Of a stretch of DNA of 22,267 nucleotides, positions 7,508-22,267 are shown one piece after another; position 1 is the stretch's first letter, and each line of letters opens with the position of its first letter. This DNA comes from a virus: IMG/VR virus record IMGVR_UViG_3300025892_000176, positions 1 to 22,267 of that record; one strand, given 5' to 3'. Below the pieces are notes generated by a model. The model ran no database searches. It was not told where the DNA came from and saw nothing but the letters and a program-made list of their open reading frames with translations. Both the position numbers and the translations under genes were made by a program.

Positions 7508-10500
7508 TTAAGGTTCATAGTTAGCGAGTAATTCTAGTCTGACTGAGGCGAGTACAGGCCCTGGGAATCCAGAAGTATACTCGGCTATTTCTATCACACC
7601 TCTAGAAAATGATGATAAACCATTACCTGTTTCATCTTCTTGTGTCCATGTTCTGGACACATCTAGACGGTAATACCCGTTGTTCGAAGTGCCTGTAGGA
7701 GTAATTACATCGTCGGTGTAGTCTGACATTAAATCTTCACGATACCTAATCATATAATCAGAAGCATTCCCCCCTGCTCCTAGCCAAGTTTGTTCCCAAG
7801 GATTACCATTATTATCTGTCAACCAACTAACACCATCTTTAAACGCGGTTGAAGAATCATATCCAGAAGGTAAAGGTGAAAATACGACTTTGCCGTCAGA
7901 AGCTTGAAAGGTAATTGATATTTGTGCTTTAGAAAATCCACTATAAAAAATATTGGACAAATTCCAATTATTTCCATCTAACTGCACAGTGACAGGTGGA
8001 TATGATACTAGAACTTGATCAGTGGCAAGTGCCGTTGAATCATATGTAAAGGCAAATCCTGGATTAGTTAGAGATAATTCTAAAGGTTTATACAAAGACC
8101 AACTAAAATTCTGATCGCCTGAAAACAGGCTTGGATCATTTACACTATTTACTGTAATATTATTAAATGAACTTTCATTAGCATCTTCTCTCACTACAAA
8201 TTGTTTAAAAGGCGGATATATGGAAAATGTTTCTTCAGTTCCAAAATAATAAGTTTTTGCTAAAGTATCGCTTGGTCCGTTGGTATCGGTTATGTCTGCC
8301 ATAGTTCTATCTAAAATAAGCGAATACCTTTCTCCACTGGATTGTGTTGACGTAGAAGGTATAGTAGCATTAGTAACTTTACCTATAAGTACGGCGTTTG
8401 TACCATGGGCTAGCGCCGGCGCCGGAGGATTAGGATAAGAAATTTCTTCGAAAGGACCATTAGGATATCCAAAATGATCTTCATTGTCAAAATCAGCCCA
8501 TACATACATACCATTTTCAACACCCAAATCTTGAAAAGTGCCGGGAGTGTTTTTATAAGTGTAAATATAATCGGATTCTCCATTTGAAGGAATAGTACAT
8601 AAAGGTACTAAAACCATATCAGTAAATCGAGCTTCAACTCTTCGATAATCACCTAAATTATAAACATCAGTACTCCAAACAATAGATTGACCTAATGATA
8701 CAGGTTCAATAGTTGCTAATTCGAAATTCCAAACTTCTCCCGCATCTGTCAATGTTATCGAACCAGAAGCAACCTCTGTGCCTTCAACTGATGCCGTTAT
8801 AGTTATTGTTCTAGGACCGTCAATAATTGCATCAGCGGGATTATTAGGAAAAGTTACTGAAGCAATACCACCAGGAATACTATTCGTATTTTGAACAGTA
8901 CTACTGAAAAAAGTACTGGCGTCTGTGCCTGTTATTTCGATTTCTAAATCTTCTACTGGTTGTCCTGCACTGACAGCAATGTTCACCTTTAAATCATTAC
9001 CTTCGGCTATGCTGGTAATAATTTCATCTTGAGCATCGACAGTGGTAATTTCATAAGTAGCTGCAGAAGTATCTAAAATTGTATAAACAGGCGAAATCGC
9101 TATTTCTGAGCCAGTATTATTTTCACCTATTACAAGTTGAAAATTTTCCATTCCTTCACGAAGAACATCTTCTGAAACTGTAACCCGTATATCAGCGCTT
9201 CCACTTGTAAGTGTTATATCTTTTTTATCAGTAAAAGTTCCAAATTCAGCACTAACTAATCCTAGCCCATCATTCTGATCTTTTCTCACCTCGGAAAAAT
9301 CAGCAGATGTAATATCACCAACAAACCAATACTTATATGTATCGTCAGTGCCTGATATAACCATTTCAAAAATAGAACCTTCATTTATATTTGTAGATGC
9401 TGGAGTTATGCCAGTAATAGCAGGTGTCGATCCTTGAATATTAAGATCCAAAGTTGCCAAAATATTATTGGCACCACCACCACTTGAAATATCATTTATT
9501 CCTACTTGATATAATTCATTATTAATACGAGCAGGATCTATTGAATATTTTAATTGTGTAGTAGAAGTAGTAACCTCTCGACGGTTAGCGTCTAGTGGAT
9601 AATAATCAGGAAATGGTTCAGATGCTACAGCAGCAAAATCGGCTGAAGTGACTTCGGTAGGATCTATATAAAAATAAACAGGAATACTAGGATCTATGTT
9701 GTTTCCTCCGATAGTAAATGTTACTATCTCACCACCGGGCGCTATTGATTTATCCGCCACCAGTGCGTATTCAGGATCTAAATTAGTAATACTAAAAGTA
9801 CTATTACCGGTAACACCTAAACCAGAAATTTCGACAGTGTTTTGTACTACTGGTTCAAAAGTATTACTTGCTGTTGTAGGTATATTTATTAATAAAGTTG
9901 ATCCAGTATAATTTGCCGTCCCTGTCGAAGATGGAAATCTACTATCAGGATTTAATATGGTCCAAGTCAATTCTTCATTAATATCTGAAGGAATCGAACC
10001 TTGGGATGCAGTGATATCAACGGTGACTACTAAATCTTGACCTTCTTGAATATCAGGTGAAGTAGCATTAATGCTTGGAAGAACATTTATAATTCGAATT
10101 TCTTGCGTCTTTAATTCATATCCGTATTCATTTATAATTTTAAATGTAGCAGTTTCGTCTGCAGATTCAGCGCCATCCAAAATAGACTTGACGTTAAAAG
10201 ATCCTGATCCTGCAGTAACAATAAATTCTTGAGCGCTACCTAATAAAGGCATAGTTCCTTCGAAATCAGCATCGACAGCAGTGCCTGGTTCAAAATACCA
10301 TCTAAGCACTGCTTCTCCATTATTAGGAAGGACTTCTAAATCATTAGAACTCATAACAAATTCAATATTTGATCCTTCTAAGATATCAATTGTGCTACCA
10401 CTTACAGAACCATTAATTCTTAAAACCCAACCAGGCAATCGATCTTCTAAGTTACACACTTGAGACAATATAATTCTACCAGCACGATCAGTTACATATA

Positions 10501-11482
10501 TGGTAAAAGTTTCTGAAGCTAGATCTTCGGGATTGCCATATGAATCTAAAATGGTATTTAAATTAAATGATCCTTGTGCTGTTCCTCCTGAACCGTTTAA
10601 TTCAAAGTATTGAGGATTGTTAATATCGGGCAAACCAGAAGTTTGATCATAACTATTGATTCCGAAGTCAGCGTCAGTTGTTGTTCCGTGTTCGCCATAC
10701 CAATATAAAGCATCTTTTTCATATGGAGTTTCAGTTGCTTGAACTGTAAATGTCCACTCTCTACCTTCTTCTTGAGTTGTAATTAAAGTTTGAAAAGAAT
10801 ATTCTGTACTAAGTCTAGACGGAACATTATCAAGAGAATTCGTAATCTCTAACGCTTGTAATGCCGCCAAAATATCATCAGTAATCGATACTTCACTACC
10901 TAAATACATTCCTGCTGGATGAGTAAACAATTTAAAAACATCTTTCCACTCAGAGATAGAAACGCCAACGCGAACTAATAAGGCAAAAGTTTGATATAAT
11001 TTATCGTCAGTAAGAAATCTTAAGGATTCTGGTCCAATTTTAGAATCAGTGTCACCTACTTTAAAAATATTTTCTTTAGGATATAATACTTCAACATCCT
11101 CATTATAAAATGATCTAAAGAACCACTCAATTGCAAACTTAGTTCCTTTTGATCGAAATAAAATGTTAGAGAAATTAGCAGCGGCTCTTAACTCAGCAGC
11201 ATTGTTTTCTTTTCTTAAACCATCAAAGTATGCATCACCCAAAAGCAATTCATCTTCGATATAAGAAAGCAAAGTGATATCTGTTTCTGTGACATCGCGT
11301 GTCGCAAAAAGATGATTTAATAATTCAGTAGAACTATTCTGATCTTGAAATTCATAGTATCGTTCTAACAGAGCAATGAAATTAGGATAGTACGCCGCAA
11401 AATGTTCGGGCAAAACATTTTCGACTTTCATTTCCCGCAGATTTAAATTTCTACGTTTTTTGTCTATAAAACGAGTGTGCAT
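7508..11482 (-). CDS. Large virion protein: conserved helical head module plus Calx-beta/Ig-like repeats
   Basis: 1324 residues. Residues 18-200 form a helical module (KVENVLPEHFAAYYPNF, RSKGTKFAIEWFFRSF, DDKLYQTFALLVRVGV, HPAGMYLGSEV) that I recognise as recurring in structural proteins of marine T4-like phages; it is probably the virion anchor. Residues 225-800 contain Calx-beta-like units. Four show the ADF signature (TTDADFG, AVDADFEG, VTSADFAAV, ITSADFSEV), and others show EG-start strands such as ILEGSNIEF and INEGSIFEM. Residues 810-915 resemble an Ig-like domain. Residues 920-1324 are beta-rich and unassigned. There is no signal peptide, membrane segment or enzyme motif. It follows the cupredoxin gene by four bases. 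A second possible start is Met18 (11431). The likely role is a surface-exposed tail or neck fibre; exact location and ligand are unknown. Confidence 0.85.
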   Translation of the reverse strand: MHTRFIDKKRRNLNLREMKVENVLPEHFAAYYPNFIALLERYYEFQDQNSSTELLNHLFATRDVTETDITLLSYIEDELLLGDAYFDGLRKENNAAELRAAANFSNILFRSKGTKFAIEWFFRSFYNEDVEVLYPKENIFKVGDTDSKIGPESLRFLTDDKLYQTFALLVRVGVSISEWKDVFKLFTHPAGMYLGSEVSITDDILAALQALEITNSLDNVPSRLSTEYSFQTLITTQEEGREWTFTVQATETPYEKDALYWYGEHGTTTDADFGINSYDQTSGLPDINNPQYFELNGSGGTAQGSFNLNTILDSYGNPEDLASETFTIYVTDRAGRIILSQVCNLEDRLPGWVLRINGSVSGSTIDILEGSNIEFVMSSNDLEVLPNNGEAVLRWYFEPGTAVDADFEGTMPLLGSAQEFIVTAGSGSFNVKSILDGAESADETATFKIINEYGYELKTQEIRIINVLPSINATSPDIQEGQDLVVTVDITASQGSIPSDINEELTWTILNPDSRFPSSTGTANYTGSTLLINIPTTASNTFEPVVQNTVEISGLGVTGNSTFSITNLDPEYALVADKSIAPGGEIVTFTIGGNNIDPSIPVYFYIDPTEVTSADFAAVASEPFPDYYPLDANRREVTTSTTQLKYSIDPARINNELYQVGINDISSGGGANNILATLDLNIQGSTPAITGITPASTNINEGSIFEMVISGTDDTYKYWFVGDITSADFSEVRKDQNDGLGLVSAEFGTFTDKKDITLTSGSADIRVTVSEDVLREGMENFQLVIGENNTGSEIAISPVYTILDTSAATYEITTVDAQDEIITSIAEGNDLKVNIAVSAGQPVEDLEIEITGTDASTFFSSTVQNTNSIPGGIASVTFPNNPADAIIDGPRTITITASVEGTEVASGSITLTDAGEVWNFELATIEPVSLGQSIVWSTDVYNLGDYRRVEARFTDMVLVPLCTIPSNGESDYIYTYKNTPGTFQDLGVENGMYVWADFDNEDHFGYPNGPFEEISYPNPPAPALAHGTNAVLIGKVTNATIPSTSTQSSGERYSLILDRTMADITDTNGPSDTLAKTYYFGTEETFSIYPPFKQFVVREDANESSFNNITVNSVNDPSLFSGDQNFSWSLYKPLELSLTNPGFAFTYDSTALATDQVLVSYPPVTVQLDGNNWNLSNIFYSGFSKAQISITFQASDGKVVFSPLPSGYDSSTAFKDGVSWLTDNNGNPWEQTWLGAGGNASDYMIRYREDLMSDYTDDVITPTGTSNNGYYRLDVSRTWTQEDETGNGLSSFSRGVIEIAEYTSGFPGPVLASVRLELLANYEP

Positions 11483-11486
11483 ATTT

Positions 11487-13100
11487 TTATACTACAGTAA
11501 TGGTATTTGCCATTCCGCCGTGATTAGTACACTTGTAATAAAGTGAACTCGGAGCGCTCATAGGTACTTTAAATTGTGTAATCCCAACTTCATCTGTTCC
11601 TGATATTACTGACACACCTGTGGTGTATGGTGTGCTAGTATCCGCTTCAGTAATTAAAAATGGATGACCTGTATGATTATGATCAAATCTATATGTATCA
11701 CCTCTCCTCAAATACAATACCGGATTGTCTTCTGCGGAAGGAAACCAAACATTTCCTGCATCACTAAAGGTATAAGCAGAGCTACCATTATTGGTCATGT
11801 TAAATGAATATGCTACGCCCGTACTAACAGAAATTCCCACATCACTGTCTGCTCCAAAATACATAGCACCAGTGTTGCTGATGTTATTAATTTTAGAAAT
11901 ATCAGGAACATATCTTAGATTGCTGGAAGCGTTGACTTCATCAGCAGGAGCTCCTGAAGCACTTCCAAAATGAATATATGAAGTACCGTTGTTGGCATCT
12001 GCATTAACAACTTTTACTTCATTCGCTATCGAAAGAGATAAATTAGTTAACTCTGAACCGTTACCAGAAAATTTTGTTGCGTATACAGTATCACCTTCAA
12101 CATAAAAATGTTCATGGATACCAACGCTGTCGTATCCTGTTGTGCTGGCTTTTCCTGTCACATAATCTTTAACTGGCTCAGCTAATAAAGGGTCCCTGAT
12201 TATAGAATCTGTTTTCTTTGTCCATTGTGAACCACCAAATAAAAAAAGTTCAGTTTCGGTAGTACCTTTAATTATGTTTGTACCAGGATTATATAAAAAT
12301 GCAGTGTCTATATTAGTGCTATCATATGTTTCAGCAGTAGTATCCAAACGAAATAAAACACTATGATCTGCGTCTTCTTCGGTAAGATTGGCTTGAATTT
12401 GTTTTCCGCCAACATTTTCTAATAATGATCCATCACCTACAAAAAATATATCAGGTCCACCAAATTGATTTGTTGCTGGATCATGTCTTAAATCTGAATC
12501 TACATACAAAACAGAAGCGCCGTCTTTGGTTGTAGAAAACGTAGCATAAAGAGTATCAGTAATACTATTCAATATTGGATCTTGAATATTTACTTGATCA
12601 GCTAAATCAGTTATTTGTGAATGATAAGCACTATCAACTTTTATTAATTCCGCACCGTTACCAGAAAATGCTGGCGCACTTAAAGTGGCTAAATCACCTG
12701 TAGTATCATATCTAAGACCTGTGCTCGTATATGAACTATCAAAACCTGTTGCGTTTTCTCTAAAAATTAAATATCCTTCAGTTAATGTTTGATTGTCTAC
12801 AGCATCTATTTCTTTGGAATCTGCTACAAGTTCGTCTAAATTAGTAATGCTATTGCCAAATCCATCAGTTAATGTATTAGAAAAGGTGATATCCGTTGTG
12901 CCGGTTATAGATCCACTAGCACTTAAATTTCCATCTACTTGAGAACCACCTGCTACATCATCAATATTAGTATTTGCTAAATTACGTATATCTTGTAATG
13001 TGGATCGTTTGGTCGTCAATGAGCTGACATCATTAACAATAACTTCATCTGACAATACAGGAGTAAAAGCAATTAATTGGGATAGTTTAACGTCTGCCAT
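11487..13100 (-). CDS. Virion structural protein with C-terminal cupredoxin domain
   Basis: 537 residues. The N-terminus MADVKLSQLIAFTPVLSDEV resembles short attachment modules at the start of many marine-phage fibre-like proteins. The middle (about 50-440) is Gly/Ser/Asn/Thr-rich with repeated tail-fibre-like pieces, for example FSGNGAELIKV and FSGNGSELTNL. Residues 450-537 form a cupredoxin fold: LYLRRGDTYRF, NHTGHPFLI, then LYYKCTNHGGM at the end. Candidate type-1 copper ligands are H479, C524, H527 and M530. The C-x2-H-x2-M spacing is that of amicyanin. It has no signal peptide and is not a free electron carrier, so the domain is more likely a fibre tip or stabilising unit. A late-promoter variant lies just upstream. 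Confidence is high for a virion protein with this domain and low for copper binding. Confidence 0.85.
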   Translation of the reverse strand: MADVKLSQLIAFTPVLSDEVIVNDVSSLTTKRSTLQDIRNLANTNIDDVAGGSQVDGNLSASGSITGTTDITFSNTLTDGFGNSITNLDELVADSKEIDAVDNQTLTEGYLIFRENATGFDSSYTSTGLRYDTTGDLATLSAPAFSGNGAELIKVDSAYHSQITDLADQVNIQDPILNSITDTLYATFSTTKDGASVLYVDSDLRHDPATNQFGGPDIFFVGDGSLLENVGGKQIQANLTEEDADHSVLFRLDTTAETYDSTNIDTAFLYNPGTNIIKGTTETELFLFGGSQWTKKTDSIIRDPLLAEPVKDYVTGKASTTGYDSVGIHEHFYVEGDTVYATKFSGNGSELTNLSLSIANEVKVVNADANNGTSYIHFGSASGAPADEVNASSNLRYVPDISKINNISNTGAMYFGADSDVGISVSTGVAYSFNMTNNGSSAYTFSDAGNVWFPSAEDNPVLYLRRGDTYRFDHNHTGHPFLITEADTSTPYTTGVSVISGTDEVGITQFKVPMSAPSSLYYKCTNHGGMANTITVV

Positions 13101-13138: not shown

Positions 13139-14425
13139 CTATGACACAGTTATATTAACAGTTGCAACTTCTGATGTACCAATTTCTGGTGTAACTCGAT
13201 AAACAAAAGAGTCTGTTCCAGTATAACTTACGTTGGGTGTATATCTAAATTGTCCTGTGGCAGAATTTAGGACTTCTACAGATCCATTGAGAGGATCTCC
13301 TCCTGCTGCCAAAGAAAATACTAATGTTGTATTTGTCCACAAATCATTTGTTGCAACATTAAAGATCTGTGGAGTATCCAACGTCACATTAACAACATCA
13401 TTTATAGCGTCTGAAATCGCTGCAACATTAACAGCAATAGGATATAATTTAGAACCAAAGTCACCAAGAACATTGATATTAAAAGAATCCAATCCACTAT
13501 AGTCGATATCGGAAGTATATGTATAAGTAGCTACCGCACTTATCACGCCGTCTGTCGATGTTAATACATTTGTTAATGATCCCGAAGCAGTGCCGTGTAA
13601 AGGATCTGACACTGTAATAGATGTTGCTGAAGAAGGAATATTTTTTATCATAAAATTTTCTACTGTTAAAGGCACTTCTTCGATAGGCTCTATAGATAAA
13701 GGAGATGCCGCAAAAGCACTATCAAGACATACTTTAGAAAATAACTCTTCTTCTGGGTATGCGTTAAGATTGAGAAACTCAACACACGCTTCTTCGATAA
13801 TGGCAGAACTGTTAGAAACATCTTTATATAAATTGATTTTCATATCAAAATCTAATGTATAAATGATAGTACGTCTGTTTTCTATAGCCGCTTCGTAATC
13901 ATCACTAAATGTAATTCCCGTCATTGTGATAGGTGTGTCTTCTTTAATATCTAAATCATTTAATGGCTTAACAGTGACGGTGTAATGGGGTGTAAAATAA
14001 GGCAATATTTGCTCAACAATTTGTAATGCGTCATCTTGAGTTTTAGCGTATGCGTTCAATTGGAAAGAAATTATGTATGGAACAGGTGAATAAACTCTTT
14101 GCCCTTTTCCATTATAAGATGAAGGAAAAGTAACGCAGTTGTTCATTTTAGGCAACTGTCTTGTCGCATCATAATTCATAGCTAAAATTTCAAATGAAAT
14201 TCTGGGTAATTTTAATGCAACCTGTCTTTCGTAATCTTCTCCATTTTGCATAGATTCAATTCGTGCAAGAAAATCTCTTTTAGGAGCATAAGATAAAGGC
14301 ACTTTTTGTTGAGATAAAGTTTTACCTGCACTGTCTTGTCTTACAATGTTGATGTTATTAAATAACGATCCAAACACCGCAACTGCTTTTCTTATTCTTT
14401 GATGATAAAAATGATCGCCAAACAT
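13139..14425 (-). CDS. gp15: Tail terminator (sheath stabiliser) gp15 with C-terminal cadherin/Big-like domains
   Basis: 428 residues, while T4 gp15 is 272. Residues 1 to about 235 are the gp15 core: MFGDHFYHQRIRKAVAVFGS, LPRISFEILAMNYDATRQ, PYIISFQLNAYAKTQDD and FSDDYEAAIENRRTIIYTLDF. In T4 a hexamer of gp15 caps the finished tail and joins it to the gp13/gp14 neck. The remaining 190 residues are a linker plus two tandem beta-sandwich repeats of the cadherin-like/Big type. The hallmark YTYTSDIDYSGLDSFNINV (301-319) recurs as FRYTPNVSYTGTDSFVYRV (393-411), each before a terminal strand. The extension would place six or more adhesive domains around the neck. The start overlaps the gp14 stop as TAATG. 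Confidence 0.9.
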   Translation of the reverse strand: MFGDHFYHQRIRKAVAVFGSLFNNINIVRQDSAGKTLSQQKVPLSYAPKRDFLARIESMQNGEDYERQVALKLPRISFEILAMNYDATRQLPKMNNCVTFPSSYNGKGQRVYSPVPYIISFQLNAYAKTQDDALQIVEQILPYFTPHYTVTVKPLNDLDIKEDTPITMTGITFSDDYEAAIENRRTIIYTLDFDMKINLYKDVSNSSAIIEEACVEFLNLNAYPEEELFSKVCLDSAFAASPLSIEPIEEVPLTVENFMIKNIPSSATSITVSDPLHGTASGSLTNVLTSTDGVISAVATYTYTSDIDYSGLDSFNINVLGDFGSKLYPIAVNVAAISDAINDVVNVTLDTPQIFNVATNDLWTNTTLVFSLAAGGDPLNGSVEVLNSATGQFRYTPNVSYTGTDSFVYRVTPEIGTSEVATVNITVS

Positions 14426-15321
14426 TATGGATCTCCAAACGGATTAGATTCAGAGAAATCAATGAAGTCTATAGTACCGCCTTGTGATGTAGTATTGAAT
14501 GCGTCATTCATAGCGCCGTCTTGTAAGTCTTCTCCTATGACACTAGGAGTGCCGGTAGCACCTGATGTGGATCCAACAATAGGAGCGTTAGTACTCCAAT
14601 CATGATATTCGCCATCAGAAGCACCTCCAGTGTGAGCGACATATATTTTCTTTTCAGATGGATTTGAATTGTCTATGTTGACAACTTCACCTGTTAGGGT
14701 AAAAGAACCATTAACCTGAGTTACTGTTTCATTAAATACAAATGCTCCTGTAATTTCAGGAAAGGTAAACACAGTTTGGAAAGCATGAGCGCTTTCAACA
14801 TTGTCTATACCTTCTACACCAGTATCAAAATCTTCGTCGTTGTATTCAAACAATTCCGCACGAAGTTTAAAGACTGGCAAATCTTTTAGCTGATAGAAAG
14901 GTGATTCGTCTTCAACTTTAGTAATTTCAAAAATAGATTTTGAAAGTGGAAGAGAAATCAGATCTCCTTCGCGAGGGCGGTAGAATGGTTTGTCTTCTGA
15001 TGATTCGTAAACAGCAACTTGATTTAACCAACGCCTGCGAGATACAATAAAAGTGGCGGCATCACGAATCTCTACTCCAAATTTGCTGAACAAATCTGAT
15101 TCGCCATCGAATCCTTCAGTATTTTCTATATACATTTCCACCTTATATGCGTCATCAAACCTAGACACATTATCATCTGAAAATATGGTATCTTTGTTTA
15201 CAATCTCTCGGGGCATATAATAAACATCTTGCCCATACATTTTAAGAGATTCGATAATCAGATCTTCGTAAAGTTCTTGCTCTGAAGATCTGCCTTGTGT
15301 GAAATAGAGATTAGTAGCCAT
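14425..15321 (-). CDS. gp14: Neck protein gp14
   Basis: 298 residues (T4 gp14 is 256). With gp13 it forms the neck that closes the filled head and receives the tail. Diagnostic stretches are LKMYGQDVYYMPREIVNKD (27-45), FDDAYKVEMYIENTEGFDG (55-73) and SKFGVEIRDAATFIVSRRRW (79-98), which match exo-T-even gp14. Residues 110-160 hold the conserved FYRPREGDLISLP region. The last 100 residues (TVFTFPEITGAFVFNETVTQ onward) are Gly/Ser/Asp-rich and less conserved, ending NPFGDP. The gene lies three bases after gp13, and its stop overlaps the gp15 start as TAATG, so the three neck/tail-joining genes are probably translated together. Confidence 0.93.
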   Translation of the reverse strand: MATNLYFTQGRSSEQELYEDLIIESLKMYGQDVYYMPREIVNKDTIFSDDNVSRFDDAYKVEMYIENTEGFDGESDLFSKFGVEIRDAATFIVSRRRWLNQVAVYESSEDKPFYRPREGDLISLPLSKSIFEITKVEDESPFYQLKDLPVFKLRAELFEYNDEDFDTGVEGIDNVESAHAFQTVFTFPEITGAFVFNETVTQVNGSFTLTGEVVNIDNSNPSEKKIYVAHTGGASDGEYHDWSTNAPIVGSTSGATGTPSVIGEDLQDGAMNDAFNTTSQGGTIDFIDFSESNPFGDP

Positions 15322-15324
15322 TCA

Positions 15325-16086
15325 TTAACCCATAAAAAAATCAGGTGGAAATTCATTTTCATTTCGTAACTTTTCTTCTAATTTTTCCAATTCAGCAGTA
15401 GCATCATCATAATACTGTCTTCCGTTTAATTGTACTCCTCCCGGCAAAGTCATACCGTCAAACTTCATCATGTTACCACCCCATTGTTGTTTGATCAATT
15501 GTGTGGTATAATCTTTCATAAACTTGTCATTCCATACGTCAGCAAACGAATCTGGATCTATAAGAGATAAACATTCGGCAATAATATAATCACCTTCTGC
15601 TAGATTATTGTATTGATTGGGAGCCCACTCACCAAAAATATATAATCTATTCTGATGCCTTGAAAAATTAACTCGAGGTTCGCCGTCTAAAATATCTGAA
15701 ATAAACTCTAGATACTGTTCCATTTGGTAATAATATGACAAACCTCCTGCGAAGTTCATGAAGTCGCCCATGCTGTTTAACATCATTTGATATTTAACAT
15801 CAAACATATTAACAGATCCAAATGTTTTACTAAATGGATATACTTTAGTGAGATATAGTACAGTGTTTGGAATAGTAATGTATTCGTTTGTTACATCATC
15901 CGCTGTTATTTGATGTTTAATGTAAGTAGTAAAAGTAGCGTCTGCATGATATTCTTGAAACATTTGTAACGCATCATCAACTTTATCTTCAATCTGATCA
16001 TCATCTACATTAATTTCTAACACAGGAGAACCTAATCTCCGCAGGCAGAAATCAACTAGTTCTTCTCTTGTAGTAGGCGATGCCAT
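15325..16086 (-). CDS. gp13: Neck (head completion) protein gp13
   Basis: 253 residues (T4 gp13 is 309). It acts with gp14 at the portal vertex after DNA packaging. The N-terminus reads ELVDFCLRRLGSPVLEINVD then DQIEDKVDDALQMFQEYHAD, the conserved opening of exo-T-even gp13. Later landmarks are YITIPNTVLYLTKVYPF and a helical C-terminus (DATAELEKLEEKLRNE) ending PPDFFMG. The ATG at 16086 has GGAG at 16095-16098, eight bases upstream, and a perfect late promoter at 16109-16116. It heads the gp13-gp14-gp15 unit. Confidence 0.94.
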   Translation of the reverse strand: MASPTTREELVDFCLRRLGSPVLEINVDDDQIEDKVDDALQMFQEYHADATFTTYIKHQITADDVTNEYITIPNTVLYLTKVYPFSKTFGSVNMFDVKYQMMLNSMGDFMNFAGGLSYYYQMEQYLEFISDILDGEPRVNFSRHQNRLYIFGEWAPNQYNNLAEGDYIIAECLSLIDPDSFADVWNDKFMKDYTTQLIKQQWGGNMMKFDGMTLPGGVQLNGRQYYDDATAELEKLEEKLRNENEFPPDFFMG

Positions 16087-16122: not shown

Positions 16123-18033
16123 TTAAAGCGTTAATCGAATACGTCTTCTAGGATAAGTTTGACCGCTTACTGGTCTGTCTACATGTAATTTGCCATGTAT
16201 ATCATTATGATATTGAGATATTCTATCCAGTCTAACTTCGTATGGTAAAAATACTCTGAGGGGATTTGTACCAAACAATTCAGTTAATGTAAATCCTCCG
16301 TTTGCAAATCTTACCTCATCATAAGTATTAGGGGTTGTATATCTTTCAGGATATATTTTATTGGAAGATGACGGCGCACCTGTTAAATTTGTGTAATCTA
16401 TCACGCTATCACTTTGTAACACGGATTTAGCATTAGTTAACATGTATGTTTTAAGTTCATCAAAAGATGGATATCTACCGTATTTAACATACCACCAACT
16501 GACTATGACACCAGCGACACCTGCTACTTGAGGAGCAGCGTTACTTGTTCCACCAAACATACCCCATTTAAATCCTAATGCATCAGTGGCTAAAGGATAA
16601 GCATTAAATGTTGAAGTTCCATTCGCTGCCAAATCTACAACTGGTCCACGAGCAGAATAACTATCTAATAATGTGTTAGTATCACTGTGTTGTGAAGCGG
16701 CTACAGACATACACCATCGTGTGTCTCCATCTCTTCCATTTCGTAAAGGATATACTACTGAAGGTGCTGATCCTGTAGTGTCTATTATAGTATAATTAAG
16801 ACTAACCCCTTGTTCTGCAGAAAAACTTTGATAAAAATATTTAATAGGAACTGATCCACCACCTTGATCTTCAATTTGTATTTGAGTGTTCCATTGAGGT
16901 TGATTCCAACCAGCCTTTACTCCTGCTCCATTACCCAAAGACATAAAATTATATATGCCATTATATGTAGACCAGGTGTCACCTATTTCTTCCCATGCGC
17001 TAATTTTATTTTGGGTTGTCCAAGGTATCATCCATTGAGAAACTCCTCCATCGGTTACATATCGAGGAGCAATACCAGCGTTAACAAAAGGAGTTAAATC
17101 GTTTCCCCAACTGGCACCAGGTCGATTAGTGGTAACAAGATTGCCTGCGGAATCATATGCTTGTAATTGATCTATGTAATCTGGTAAAATAGCATAGTTA
17201 ATAGTAGAACCAAAAAATCCCCACGCACCGGTGACTATCGTAGCATTTCTTTTACCTGTTTCGGGATTAATAGGTTTTGTGTTATGCCATTCTAAAATTG
17301 CACCGTAAACTGATACATAAGGATCTACATTAATGTATATAACTCGAAGAGAAGCATTTTTACACCAACCAGAATATAATCCTCCTGAAGTGCTTAATAC
17401 ACCAATTGCATGACTGTCAAAATATTTTAATCCTGCAATTTGATTATTTTCATCCGAGTTAAGATTCACATTGTAATCACGCCATTGCATAGGAATAAAT
17501 CTTCTATCGCCATTCGCATCTAAGAAATCAGGATGATCGATTGTCATATCAGTATCGTAATCAGGTAATCCAGCCTCAACAGCAACAATGTCTACATATT
17601 TTCCATCGTTCCAATAATCATAAGAACCCGGTATATTATTGTCTTCGTTTTCTGGAGGATCAATAAATCTTCCTACAGGATTTTCATTTTCAATTGAATC
17701 AGAAAAATAATAAAATGAAGTAGTTGCTCGATCTATACCAATTTCTCCTTCAGCAAATGTTACAGAGTCATCGGTTATAAAATTCGATTGTTGTTGTCGT
17801 AATATGTCTGGATATGTAGAAGATGAGATTGCTATTTCTTGTTTTTCAAGTGAGACAATTTCTTCGCAGTGTGAAAGTTCCTCAGCCTCTTCTTCGGTCA
17901 ATCTAAAAACCATAAGAGATTGGAACATAGAACATTCATCTATACACTCGTAGTCACAGGCGTGACCAGTATGAATAAATTCATGTTGATCACACTCTCC
18001 TGTAACAATTGCGTTGTATATGTGTTTTCCCAT
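16123..18033 (-). CDS. Subtilisin-like (S8) serine protease, phage-encoded, with Glu at the Asp position
   Basis: 636 residues. Residues 1-70 look like an I9-type propeptide: FRLTEEEAEELSHCEEIVSLE matches its C-terminal half. They include an unusual Cys/His cluster (C14, H17, H21, H24, C26, C30, C34). The protease domain spans about 145-545. His208 lies in FDSHAIGVLSTSG and Ser496 in GGTSNAAPQVAG; a candidate oxyanion Asn is N303 in LVTTNRPG. The position usually held by Asp in a DTG-like turn reads Glu153 (VAVEAGLP). The segment WHNTKPINPETGKRNATIV is typical of marine-phage subtilases. No signal peptide is visible, so it probably acts in the infected cell or on the virion, for instance maturing or releasing surface proteins. 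The start overlaps the upstream stop as TAATG. The fold is secure; activity is not. Confidence 0.9.
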   Translation of the reverse strand: MGKHIYNAIVTGECDQHEFIHTGHACDYECIDECSMFQSLMVFRLTEEEAEELSHCEEIVSLEKQEIAISSSTYPDILRQQQSNFITDDSVTFAEGEIGIDRATTSFYYFSDSIENENPVGRFIDPPENEDNNIPGSYDYWNDGKYVDIVAVEAGLPDYDTDMTIDHPDFLDANGDRRFIPMQWRDYNVNLNSDENNQIAGLKYFDSHAIGVLSTSGGLYSGWCKNASLRVIYINVDPYVSVYGAILEWHNTKPINPETGKRNATIVTGAWGFFGSTINYAILPDYIDQLQAYDSAGNLVTTNRPGASWGNDLTPFVNAGIAPRYVTDGGVSQWMIPWTTQNKISAWEEIGDTWSTYNGIYNFMSLGNGAGVKAGWNQPQWNTQIQIEDQGGGSVPIKYFYQSFSAEQGVSLNYTIIDTTGSAPSVVYPLRNGRDGDTRWCMSVAASQHSDTNTLLDSYSARGPVVDLAANGTSTFNAYPLATDALGFKWGMFGGTSNAAPQVAGVAGVIVSWWYVKYGRYPSFDELKTYMLTNAKSVLQSDSVIDYTNLTGAPSSSNKIYPERYTTPNTYDEVRFANGGFTLTELFGTNPLRVFLPYEVRLDRISQYHNDIHGKLHVDRPVSGQTYPRRRIRLTL

Positions 18034-21000
18034 TACAGGAATTCAGCCGGTAAAGCATAGTTGGCGTAATACACACCTTCACCAACAACTATCTTGAAGT
18101 TTTCAATATATCCATGAAAACCAGAAGTGCCGTCAGCCAATGCAGCCAATGTTAGAGGTCTAGTACCCCAATCCCATACATTGAGAGGAAGGTTTGTAGG
18201 TTTGAAACCATTCATGGAGAAAACTCTGGGATCAGGTTGACTTGAATAAGTTATTGCAAGATGGTTCCACTGTGATGTTACAAAAGAAGTTTGTGATAGA
18301 CTTGCCGTTGAAACACCAGAGATGAATCCGCCGTCATTTTGATACACCCGTATCTGATCATCTTCTCTAGTCACAGTTAAATACTTGTTGCCAGTAGAAT
18401 CAGAGGTTGATGGTGCGCCAAAGGTAAATAAAACCTCTTCGCCTCTACCAGTTTGATCAGACCAAAACCAACCTTCTATTGTGCATTTTTGTGTACCTAA
18501 AGCAATCCCTGTAGTTGTCTGTAAATAATTATTTCCAGTGGTTTGATCAGCAAACATAGATTCGTTTCCAAATTTAGTTTGAGCTGAGGAAGAGGCAAAG
18601 TTACCAACTAAATTGAATGATACTGAAGCATCTGAAATATCTGAAATAACACCCGCATCTGATTTAAGTAATAACTGTGATCCTATAGTTCCCCAGACTG
18701 GATATTCTCTAGGATTGCTTTCTTTAATTGCACTGTTTAGTCCAAAATTAGTGGCACTTGGTACATTTACAACATTCCATGTTATAAGACTGAAATTCAT
18801 TGCACTAGCACCGTTGAACATATTATTCATAAAGTTACTAGTAACACTAGATGTGTCCCAAGAACTTATATTTTGGTTGAATGCAGAGGCGTTCTGGAAC
18901 ATACTCTGCATATTAGTAACAGCACCAGTATTCCAACCGCTAATGTCTTGATTGAAATTGGTTGCGTCTCTGAACATCCTTTGCATATCAGTGACACTAG
19001 ACGTATCCCAAGAACTTATGTCTTGATTAAAGGCTGTACAACCGTCAAACATTTGATTTGTTGATGTCACACCAGTAGTGTTCCAACCCGAAATATCTTG
19101 ATTGAATGCAGAATTCCTGAAGACGCTGCCGAGCGCTTGTCCCGATAAATTTAATGTGGTTGCAAAATTACCATTTAAGGCTACACCACCATTGTTGAAT
19201 GACGTAGCATTGTCAAACATTGTTGTCATACCAGTAACACTAGACATATTCCAAGAACTAATGTCTTGATTGAATACAGTAGCAGTGTCGAACATTTGTT
19301 GCATATTTGTAACAGTACTGACATCCCAAGATGAAATATCTGGATCATTAACTGACGATCCATTGAACATACTTTGCATACTAGTAATAGGCGATCCTGT
19401 CGGCATTAAGATACCAACGTTTGCAACGAACTGATAAGTTGGGTTAGCAGTTCTCCAAGCAGTACCAGTAGGATCTGTAGCAGTGTTACTTAACGGATAC
19501 AGGATACCACCTGACGTACCCCAGATAGGATGTTCATCGGGCGTGAATAGTAGTGTGTCAAGATCAAAATTTGTTGGTTCTAGACCTATTGAAGATACAT
19601 CCCAAGCATTTAGGTTTTGATTAAAACTAAGTGCTTTTGCAAAAGTTTCAGTCATATCAGTGACATTAGAAACATTCCAACCGGATATGTCCGGAGTATC
19701 TAATGAATAAATATATCCATAACCAGGGTCAGTCGCGTTTGCGGTTGCCTCTAGATTTTCACCTTCATAATTAAAAACTATAAGTTCAGAGTCGTCTATC
19801 AAAGAAACTGTGTTTCGCTCAGCATTGATGGCCAAATTCATTGCATTAAACTGACTGCTCAATAGATCGCCATTAGAAAGATCATAAACATATACTGAAT
19901 CTCTGCCGGAGATACCTGCCGCTGACGCGGGCGTATTAGCGACATTATCGTCAAAACACGTAATAGCTAATTTATTTTGACTAACCGAAATGCCCGGTTC
20001 GACAGCAAAACCGCCCCAACGATCAGTCTGATCGCCAGTATAAGGATTATTTAGTTCGTAGAGTAAATTTCCTGTTGATATGCTATGCACATAAACAGTA
20101 TTATACGAAGAAGAATTTTTTCCTAGCGTCACAACATAATCACCAGAAACTGCCATATGATAACCCCCCCAAGACGGGTTGGTGGTGTTCAGCGATGCCG
20201 GTCGAGTTAATTCTCGTAATGGTGCACCTCCAGAGACAATATCATACACATAAACGCGACCATAATTACTAGGATCGCCATCTTCGCCTTTAGAACTTAC
20301 AATTAAATTTGTTCCTGATATTTTAGGCGCCGCACCGCCAAAGTATCCAAAAGAAGTATTTCCTACCCCAAGAGGATTTGGTGATGTAAAGGTATTAATT
20401 AATGTGTTGTAGTTAACGCCACCCCACACCTTTACTCTGCCGTTCTGAGGATTGTCAGCACCGTAATCTGTTATTGCAAGATAGTCAGAAGACATGCCCA
20501 ATTTTTCACCTAGATGATCACCAAAAGGTAACCCCGTTGCTCCTGTTTTAGTATTGACAACAGATCCTGTTGTCAAATTGTAAATTTGAACTCGCCCTGC
20601 TGCGCGAGTATTACTCGCGCCAGAATACCATTCTGATGAACTTACTGCTAAGTAATCACCACCCAAAGCAATTTCATCAGCATAACCGACATCTGAAATC
20701 GGTTGTGAAAAATTAATAGTTCCGTCATTTTCAAGTGCTTTATCAAAAGTTTTAGTAGATGTATCATATATTAAAACGGCTCCACCATCAACACCAATGG
20801 ATAAATCGTGGTCTGGTGCCGCAACTGCAATCCAAGTCGAATTTACTTTGGCGCCATTTATACCAAAGTCAGAATTGTCTGGGTTGTTGGTGGGGGAGCT
20901 TTGCTTAGGAGAAAGATACCCGGTAAGTTTTAAACCACCAAATTGAAGCGCTTTATCAAACATTGCAATCATATTTACTACACTAGATGTATTCCAATCC

Positions 21001-22267
21001 GATATGTCTTGATTAAAAACGGCAGATCGTTCAAACATTCTTTCCATATTTGTAACATTGTTTATAGTGCTAGAAAAAGTACTCCCTACAAATGTTGTAT
21101 TCCCGTTGTTAAAAGTTTTATTTCTAGCTTGAGAATTTTGAGAAAACATAAAAGAAGTGTTTGTAACATTAGCCATGTTCCATGAAGATACGTCTTGATT
21201 AAACTCTAACGCAGTATAAAACATATTAGTCATGTTAACATTTGTTGCTGTTCCGCCAGCTAAATTCCATGTCAAAGGAACAAAAAGAGGATTATTGATT
21301 AAGACACTATCTCCACCATTATTAAATTTAAGTGAGGTATCGAACATGGAAGTAAAGTCATTAACGTTACTTACATCCCAACTACTAAGATCTTGGTTGA
21401 AGAGGCTGGTACTCTTAAACATATTACTCATATCGGTAACAGTGCTAACATCCCACACTCCAATATCAGGATCATTAAATGACTTATTATTGAACATATC
21501 ACTCATATCAGTAATAGGTGTTCCTGCTGGCATTAGAATACCAACGTTTGCTATAAACGAATATCCAGCCGCTGTGCCATAGTTGGTTCTCCAAGCAGTA
21601 CTAGTAGGATCTGTGGCAGTATTACTTAACGGATACAGGATACCACCTGAAGTACCCCAAAGAGGATGTTCGTCGGTAGTGAATAATGTAGCTCCAGTGG
21701 CAAAGTTATTTGGCAGAGAAGCAATGTTTGAAACATCCCAAGCATTCAAGTTTTGATTGAATGCTAAAGCGCCATTGAACATGTTTAACATATCTTGAGT
21801 TGTGCCGGAATTATCAGTACCCACTAAACCAGTATCCCATCCACTAATGTCTTGATTAAATGTCTGGGCATTGTTGAACATAAACCCCATGTTGATGACA
21901 GCGGCAGTATTCCAAGAACTAATATCTTGATTGAATGCGGTAGCGTCGGAGAACATACCATACATATAATCTACAGTTGAAGTGTTCCAAGTCAAAGCAA
22001 CACCGCCATTGTTGAATGCAGAGGCACCTTGGAACATTCTATCCAGACCTCTAAGATTAGTGTTGTTGAATGCCACAATACCACTAAGACTCCAAGAACT
22101 AAGATCTTGATTGAATGAAGTTGCATTGGTGAATGTTGACCACATACTAGTAACAGTAGAAGTATCCCAAGTAGAAATGTCAGGATCATTAAATGTTGAA
22201 TTGCCTGAAAACATACTGTTCATATCAGTAATGGGTGATCCTGTTGGCATTAAAATACCAACGTTTG
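18033..22267 (-). CDS. Giant BspA/DUF285 surface protein with embedded beta-propeller and C-terminal LamG domain (5' end beyond window)
   Basis: The frame is open through the window edge, so the N-terminus is missing; 1410 residues are visible. Numbering from Met at 22250: 1-437 is a DUF285 (BspA-like leucine-rich) array of about a dozen units, built on [16 protein letters not shown] and an MF-containing helix with a 25-residue period. 438-842 has about seven blade-like units ([35 protein letters not shown], alternating with [16 protein letters not shown]), best read as an FG-GAP-like beta-propeller. 843-1155 is a second DUF285 array of about nine units. 1215-1405 is a LamG/concanavalin-like domain ([39 protein letters not shown]). 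DUF285 proteins are often cell-surface or adhesive. Its place upstream of neck genes, where T4 has whisker and tail-fibre genes, suggests a host-binding fibre. This is inference. Confidence 0.88.
18770..19724 (-). repeat. DUF285/BspA repeat array 2
   Basis: A second run of about nine 25-residue units of the same family, resuming with [15 protein letters not shown] directly after the propeller. Successive FNQ triplets at residues 1064, 1089 and 1114 show the exact 25-residue period. It ends before the region leading to the LamG domain. Confidence 0.85.
19450..19540 (-). repeat. Linker repeat copy 2 within the DUF285 protein
   Basis: This 91-base stretch matches 21586-21676 at 84 of 91 positions by hand alignment, with no gaps. 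It encodes the linker [20 protein letters not shown] that separates groups of DUF285 units. It is followed in both copies by [14 protein letters not shown], and a third copy of that end piece sits at the window edge. Confidence 0.85.
20940..22267 (-). repeat. DUF285/BspA repeat array 1
   Basis: In-frame 75-base units encoding a 25-residue repeat with consensus [20 protein letters not shown]. About a dozen units are visible, some expanded by insertions such as [11 protein letters not shown]. The array continues past the window edge. At the gp13 side it stops abruptly after AMFDKALQF, where propeller sequence begins. Confidence 0.85.
21586..21676 (-). repeat. Linker repeat copy 1 within the DUF285 protein
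   Basis: Direct-repeat partner of 19450-19540, in the same orientation and frame about 2.1 kb apart. Identity at DNA level is clearly higher than among neighbouring DUF285 units, which suggests recent duplication or gene conversion. Confidence 0.85.

Follow-up and report, generated by a model that had tools for sequence, protein, structure and literature searches.

The window analysed here is the whole of the linear viral record IMGVR_UViG_3300025892_000176 (22,267 bases), in which every large gene lies on the minus strand. Gene calls and searches with Pfam and PHROG profiles identified a T4-like structural cluster, transcribed in the order DUF285 protein, S8 (subtilase) protein, head-tail adaptor, neck protein, sheath stabiliser and fibre connector, followed by baseplate-wedge protein, terminase, sheath and portal. 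The DUF285 protein, referred to below as the adhesin, is encoded at 18033..22265 (minus). The gene after it (16123..18033, minus) overlaps the adhesin stop and encodes the S8 protein of the subtilase family (PF00082, E=5.4e-8), which also matches phrog_15006 'tail fiber protein' (E=4.9e-44). The gp13-like head-tail adaptor (15325..16086, minus; phrog_211, E=1.1e-39), the gp14-like neck protein (14425..15321, minus; PF11649, E=4.2e-33) and the gp15-like tail sheath stabiliser (13139..14425, minus; PF16724, E=2.3e-66) follow, the last with a C-terminal Ig-like domain (PF17963, E=3.5e-12). The position of a small protein between sheath and portal suggests that it is tube-like. The window sheath is 48% identical to that of Phage C48C1 and 44% identical to that of Pelagibacter phage HTVC008M and, judged by sequence, the source virus is a T4-like marine myovirus.

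The adhesin gene is a fragment coding for 1,410 amino acids; its frame has no stop before the contig end, and the N-terminus is thus missing. The contig end falls in linker sequence that is repeated inside the adhesin gene (repeat family D8), and this recurrence is the likely cause of the assembly stop. A first-pass annotation had read 18033-22267 as one protein with a propeller set inside a DUF285 array and a LamG domain at its end; the domains were found where it had placed them, but the whole protein was not, as the 5' end lies off the contig. Pfam detected DUF285 (PF03382) in 10 stretches (E=1.1e-154; 506.5 bits versus a cut-off of 25). From the N-terminal side, with all coordinates on the minus strand, DUF285 block 1 (residues 1-183; 21717..22265; PF03382 matches at 21675-22235) is followed by linker 1 (21549..21716) and by block 2 (residues 240-442; 20940..21548; PF03382 matches), which ends with AMFDKALQF at residues 434-442, the point at which the array had been reported to stop. 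The propeller (residues 443-855; 19701..20939) lies between F442 and D859-I-S-G-W, and DUF285 resumes, as had also been noticed, at residue 859 (segment of residues 856-895; 19581..19700; PF03382 match at 19587-19691). Linker 2 (19422..19580) is a copy of linker 1 (direct repeat family D9: 100 nt, 91% identical, spacing 2136) and precedes DUF285 block 3 (residues 949-1186; 18708..19421; PF03382 matches at 18777-19133 and 19191-19394). The protein is indeed closed by a LamG/concanavalin-like domain (18036..18707), its final 224 residues matching Laminin_G_3 (PF13385, E=8.9e-12; 45.8 bits versus a cut-off of 27.6). No relatives of the DUF285 and LamG stretches were found among PDB sequences.

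The fold of the insert was assessed by structure prediction and its homology by way of a related contig. The seven blade-like units that had been read from about 400 residues were borne out: when residues 395-935 were modelled with AlphaFold2 (12-sequence, shallow alignment; mean pLDDT 62, pTM 0.70), a closed ring of seven blades, comprising ~413 residues, was obtained between the arrays. According to our own strand-to-blade assignment, the N-terminal strand 446-451 closes the last blade. Foldseek matched the model to seven-bladed WDR5 propellers in the PDB (E ~1e-11, TM up to 0.7 by target length). The DUF285 flanks were poorly modelled, so that the geometry of the propeller relative to the repeat solenoid is not fixed by the model. 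The ~413-residue region taken alone gave no significant match in Pfam, PDB sequences, phage records or viral contigs. Of the profiles that the first-pass annotation had proposed for searching, DUF285 and LamG scored above their cut-offs but FG-GAP did not, the window copy reaching only 12.2 bits (E=0.21) with FG-GAP_2 (PF14312; cut-off 23), versus 222-861 bits for the copies in sister contigs. Homology was reached via one of these, L021, which served as a bridge. L021 and L016, both found via the S8 gene, each show seven distinct FG-GAP blades flanked by DUF285 blocks (FG-GAP_2 match in L021 with Pfam, E=5e-67). The window propeller aligns at ~30% identity with the seven-repeat FG-GAP_2 domains of the sister contigs, and blastp against the L021 propeller region gave 5e-16. 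The AlphaFold2 model of the L021 region (13-sequence, shallow alignment) has 28 strands in seven blades, with propeller blocks mostly at pLDDT 70-97; its best PDB matches in Foldseek are integrin alpha propellers, and among viral models a virion protein of cyanophage S-TIM5 is similar. Taking sequence and model together, the window insert is a divergent, predicted seven-bladed propeller of the FG-GAP type. The five-bladed platform of phage receptor-binding proteins (PF21311) was considered and rejected (E=0.046; 13.8 bits versus a cut-off of 23.7; seven blades).

The search of viral contigs for the same domain order showed that it recurs. DUF285-propeller-DUF285 nesting is present in four further contigs, each from a different dataset (L016, L021, L077 and L078); L078 encodes four seven-bladed propellers in one 3,977-residue frame, the last of them cut by the contig end. 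All nested propellers with readable junctions enter after an M..MF..A..F/Y segment and exit at ..IS.W.., the corresponding residues in the window being AMFDKALQF and PDISGW. From this shared phase it follows that the propeller replaces the residues that normally join the two halves of one DUF285 repeat. The nested cases share descent and cannot be counted as independent events. Very long arrays are also found in other large phages: in the 227-kb and 203-kb viral contigs L012 and L013, frames of >4,250 residues contain ~58 DUF285 units and the propeller is absent.

The adhesin gene is located between the baseplate/fibre and neck modules. The gene order in Phage C48C1 is similar: its adaptor is immediately preceded by proteins annotated as tail fibre and as 'structural protein'. 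A fibre protein of ~700-1,020 residues, starting with MS.L.T.SG or similar, precedes the S8 gene in L094-L099, L100, L107, L110 and L121, and the adaptor of L094-L099 is 96% identical to that of the window. The adhesin gene thus fills the fibre slot of the structural cluster, a feature of genes for tail fibres and receptor-binding proteins. A connection between fibre and array is found in L078, where baseplate-wedge and tail-fibre genes lie upstream of an ORF that is 40-46% identical to the complete L094 fibre over most of its length. Its frame passes the usual end of the fibre into a Calx-beta-like segment, meets one TAA (L078:3807-3809) and, in the same frame past the TAA, continues into more Calx-beta-like repeats and then DUF285 and propellers. 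An ATG lies a few bases after the TAA; this stop may reflect a nonsense mutation, a true division into two genes or an error in the sequence. Searching other contigs for the L078 fibre returned L078 itself only, and the continuity of fibre and array therefore rests on one contig. On the simplest reading, the DUF285/propeller array lengthens the fibre at its distal end. Because the N-terminus of the window protein is missing, we infer such an extension for the window itself.

Closely related phages differ in the adhesin. Although L018 and L021 share 99.50% identity across the 11,878 nt that begin at the S8 start, their adhesins differ: that of L018 has >4,000 residues of DUF285 and a LamG tip and lacks the propeller, and that of L021 has a propeller and a tip unrelated to that of L018. 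The LamG allele on this 99.5%-identical core is known from a single metagenomic contig, for which a chimeric assembly is possible. A stretch of 2,236 nt that begins shortly ahead of the adaptor gene is 99.0% identical between L010 and L020; in L010 the S8 gene is missing and the tip is of yet another, third type, and a further contig, L103, agrees with L010. At the DNA level the window's LamG tip shares 89-92% identity with those of L018 and L020, versus 66-70% for the adjoining S8 gene and 74-79% for the adaptor gene. In addition, a DUF285 cassette of ~880 nt is common to the contig of L018, L021 and L078 at 90-94% identity, at different positions. The allele swaps and the contrasts in identity indicate recombination of modules, which is typical of host-recognition genes, and suggest a host-recognition arm that may be swapped among near-identical sister phages. 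With somewhat less than even confidence, we propose that these giant adhesins form a class of phage protein whose leucine-rich repeat (LRR) period serves as a standard socket, with complete propellers inserted, duplicated and removed always at one point of the repeat and C-terminal tips swapped at the boundary to the following gene. Recombination between repeats would then provide a combinatorial host-range system that varies among otherwise 99.5%-identical phages.

Overall, the protein probably makes up the distal portion of a receptor-binding arm, modular and recombining, on a T4-like marine myovirus; all of the evidence comes from metagenomic contigs, from which we infer its presence in the virion, surface binding and the point of attachment. 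The DUF285 leucine-rich repeats would form a long scaffold, one of its repeats interrupted by an integrin-type seven-bladed propeller that projects sideways, and its free end capped by a lectin-like LamG domain. Judging from related contigs, the missing N-terminus may be a fibre through which the arm is attached to the tail close to the baseplate. Propeller and tip would be the ligand-binding faces, and phages could acquire different combinations through homologous recombination among the repeats and linkers, which occur in many near-identical copies. The composite receptor-binding fibre postulated by the first-pass annotation is thereby supported in part, through sequence features: the fibre slot, the L078 frame that runs from fibre to array with one stop, the shared insertion phase, and architectures that differ between near-identical phages. 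If this is correct, the receptor-binding arms of these uncultured marine phages are assembled from exchangeable adhesion modules of eukaryote-like type (LRR, integrin-type propeller, LamG), and the whole recognition end could be exchanged with the rest of the virus unchanged, a route to fast host-range change in the ocean. Such exchange would also yield a virome marker for alleles of host recognition, and the repeat socket would mark where functional domains can be inserted.

The propeller and LamG domain could instead be structural spacers or parts for trimerisation or capsid decoration, another fibre binding the host and this protein lengthening the arm or binding environmental polysaccharide non-specifically. 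Other fibre candidates are indeed present in the genome (the collagen-like protein at 193-1335 and the fibre connector at 11487-13100), and in a related contig distinct tail-fibre genes lie upstream. We nevertheless regard this as unlikely, as allele replacement between near-identical phages is the usual pattern of host specificity and not that of inert spacers. Still less probable is a non-virion protein, made during infection and secreted or displayed at the surface, that binds cell envelopes, for instance to block superinfection or clump hosts in the manner of bacterial BspA. DUF285/BspA proteins of bacteria and protists are established surface adhesins, and some phage DUF285 genes adjoin glycosyltransferases instead of neck genes. 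The window gene, however, sits in the structural cluster, fills the fibre slot and overlaps the next tail-associated gene, and in a related contig the array is joined to a fibre.

Finally, the repeats might have led the assembly to place a propeller gene wrongly within a DUF285 gene: metagenomic repeats are prone to chimeras, and DUF285 contigs commonly break within repeats, as at the window end and in L009 and L021. For the nested order this was rejected and is very improbable, given that order and junction phase recur in four other contigs from different datasets, in continuous frames and in sequence that is 67-79% related; it still has to be reckoned with for the one contig in which a LamG tip adjoins the 99.5%-identical core.

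The statement that DUF285/BspA proteins belong mostly to bacteria or protists has to be qualified: phage members are common (111 of 50,697 phage records match). Vibrio phage pir03 (ORF 200 and 287), Synechococcus phage ACG-2014f (a '26-residue repeat' protein, its gene close to tail collar genes) and Aeromonas phage LAh10 share the 25-residue repeat and very long arrays with the window; in the available part of the pir03 report, DUF285 figures as an annotation only (PMC7765460). In none of the 50,697 records did one place cover 80% of the DUF285-propeller-DUF285 query. When 84,980 species genomes were scanned with the corresponding L021 region, a search that reaches close relatives only, two bacterial DUF285 loci were found, both lacking the propeller. 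The seven-bladed FG-GAP fold of the L021 propeller is shared by integrin alpha subunits and by cyanophage FG-GAP proteins annotated as virion proteins (S-TIM5 H6WG31, S-MbCM6); the DUF285 nesting was not found in the latter with the 80%-coverage query of phage records, and the window copy is too divergent for the FG-GAP_2 cut-off. A functional precedent for a propeller in a phage host-recognition protein is the receptor-binding protein of Staphylococcus phage phi11, described as a five-bladed propeller platform (PMC4901313); it differs from the window protein, which has no significant match to PF21311, in its five blades and lack of DUF285. Module exchange is likewise seen in T4-like tail fibres and in tail-fibre modules shared among marine Alteromonas phages (PMC10579305), whereas the unit exchanged here is an entire adhesin built of repeats and nested domains. 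DUF285 and FG-GAP are each already known in phages, and their combination is new as a variant of the modular phage adhesin; a literature search of open papers returned no description of it, in agreement with the first-pass annotation.

Further features were seen in other proteins of the cluster. The S8 protein (16123-18033, minus) retains two residues of the subtilase triad, His and Ser; in the alignment the Asp position is Glu in the window, L018, L020 and L107, and the expected Asp in L094-type relatives. The S8 gene itself is lacking in L010 and L103. The C-terminal domain of the gp15-like stabiliser (13139-14425, minus) is a bacterial Ig-like domain, Big_9; we know of no such domain in the classical gp15 of T4. 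The baseplate-wedge protein (7508-11482, minus; 1,324 residues) has the wedge domain PF23786 followed by a long extension that looks Ig- or Calx-beta-like by eye. A collagen-like (Gly-X-Y) protein, possibly a further fibre, is encoded directly after the portal gene (193-1335, minus). The fibre connector (11487-13100, minus) ends in a cupredoxin-like motif (..FDHNHTGHPF..YYKCTNHGGMANTITVV), in which the spacing of His, Cys, His and Met resembles a type 1 copper site; endings of this kind also occur in L017, L018, L021, L023 and L077.
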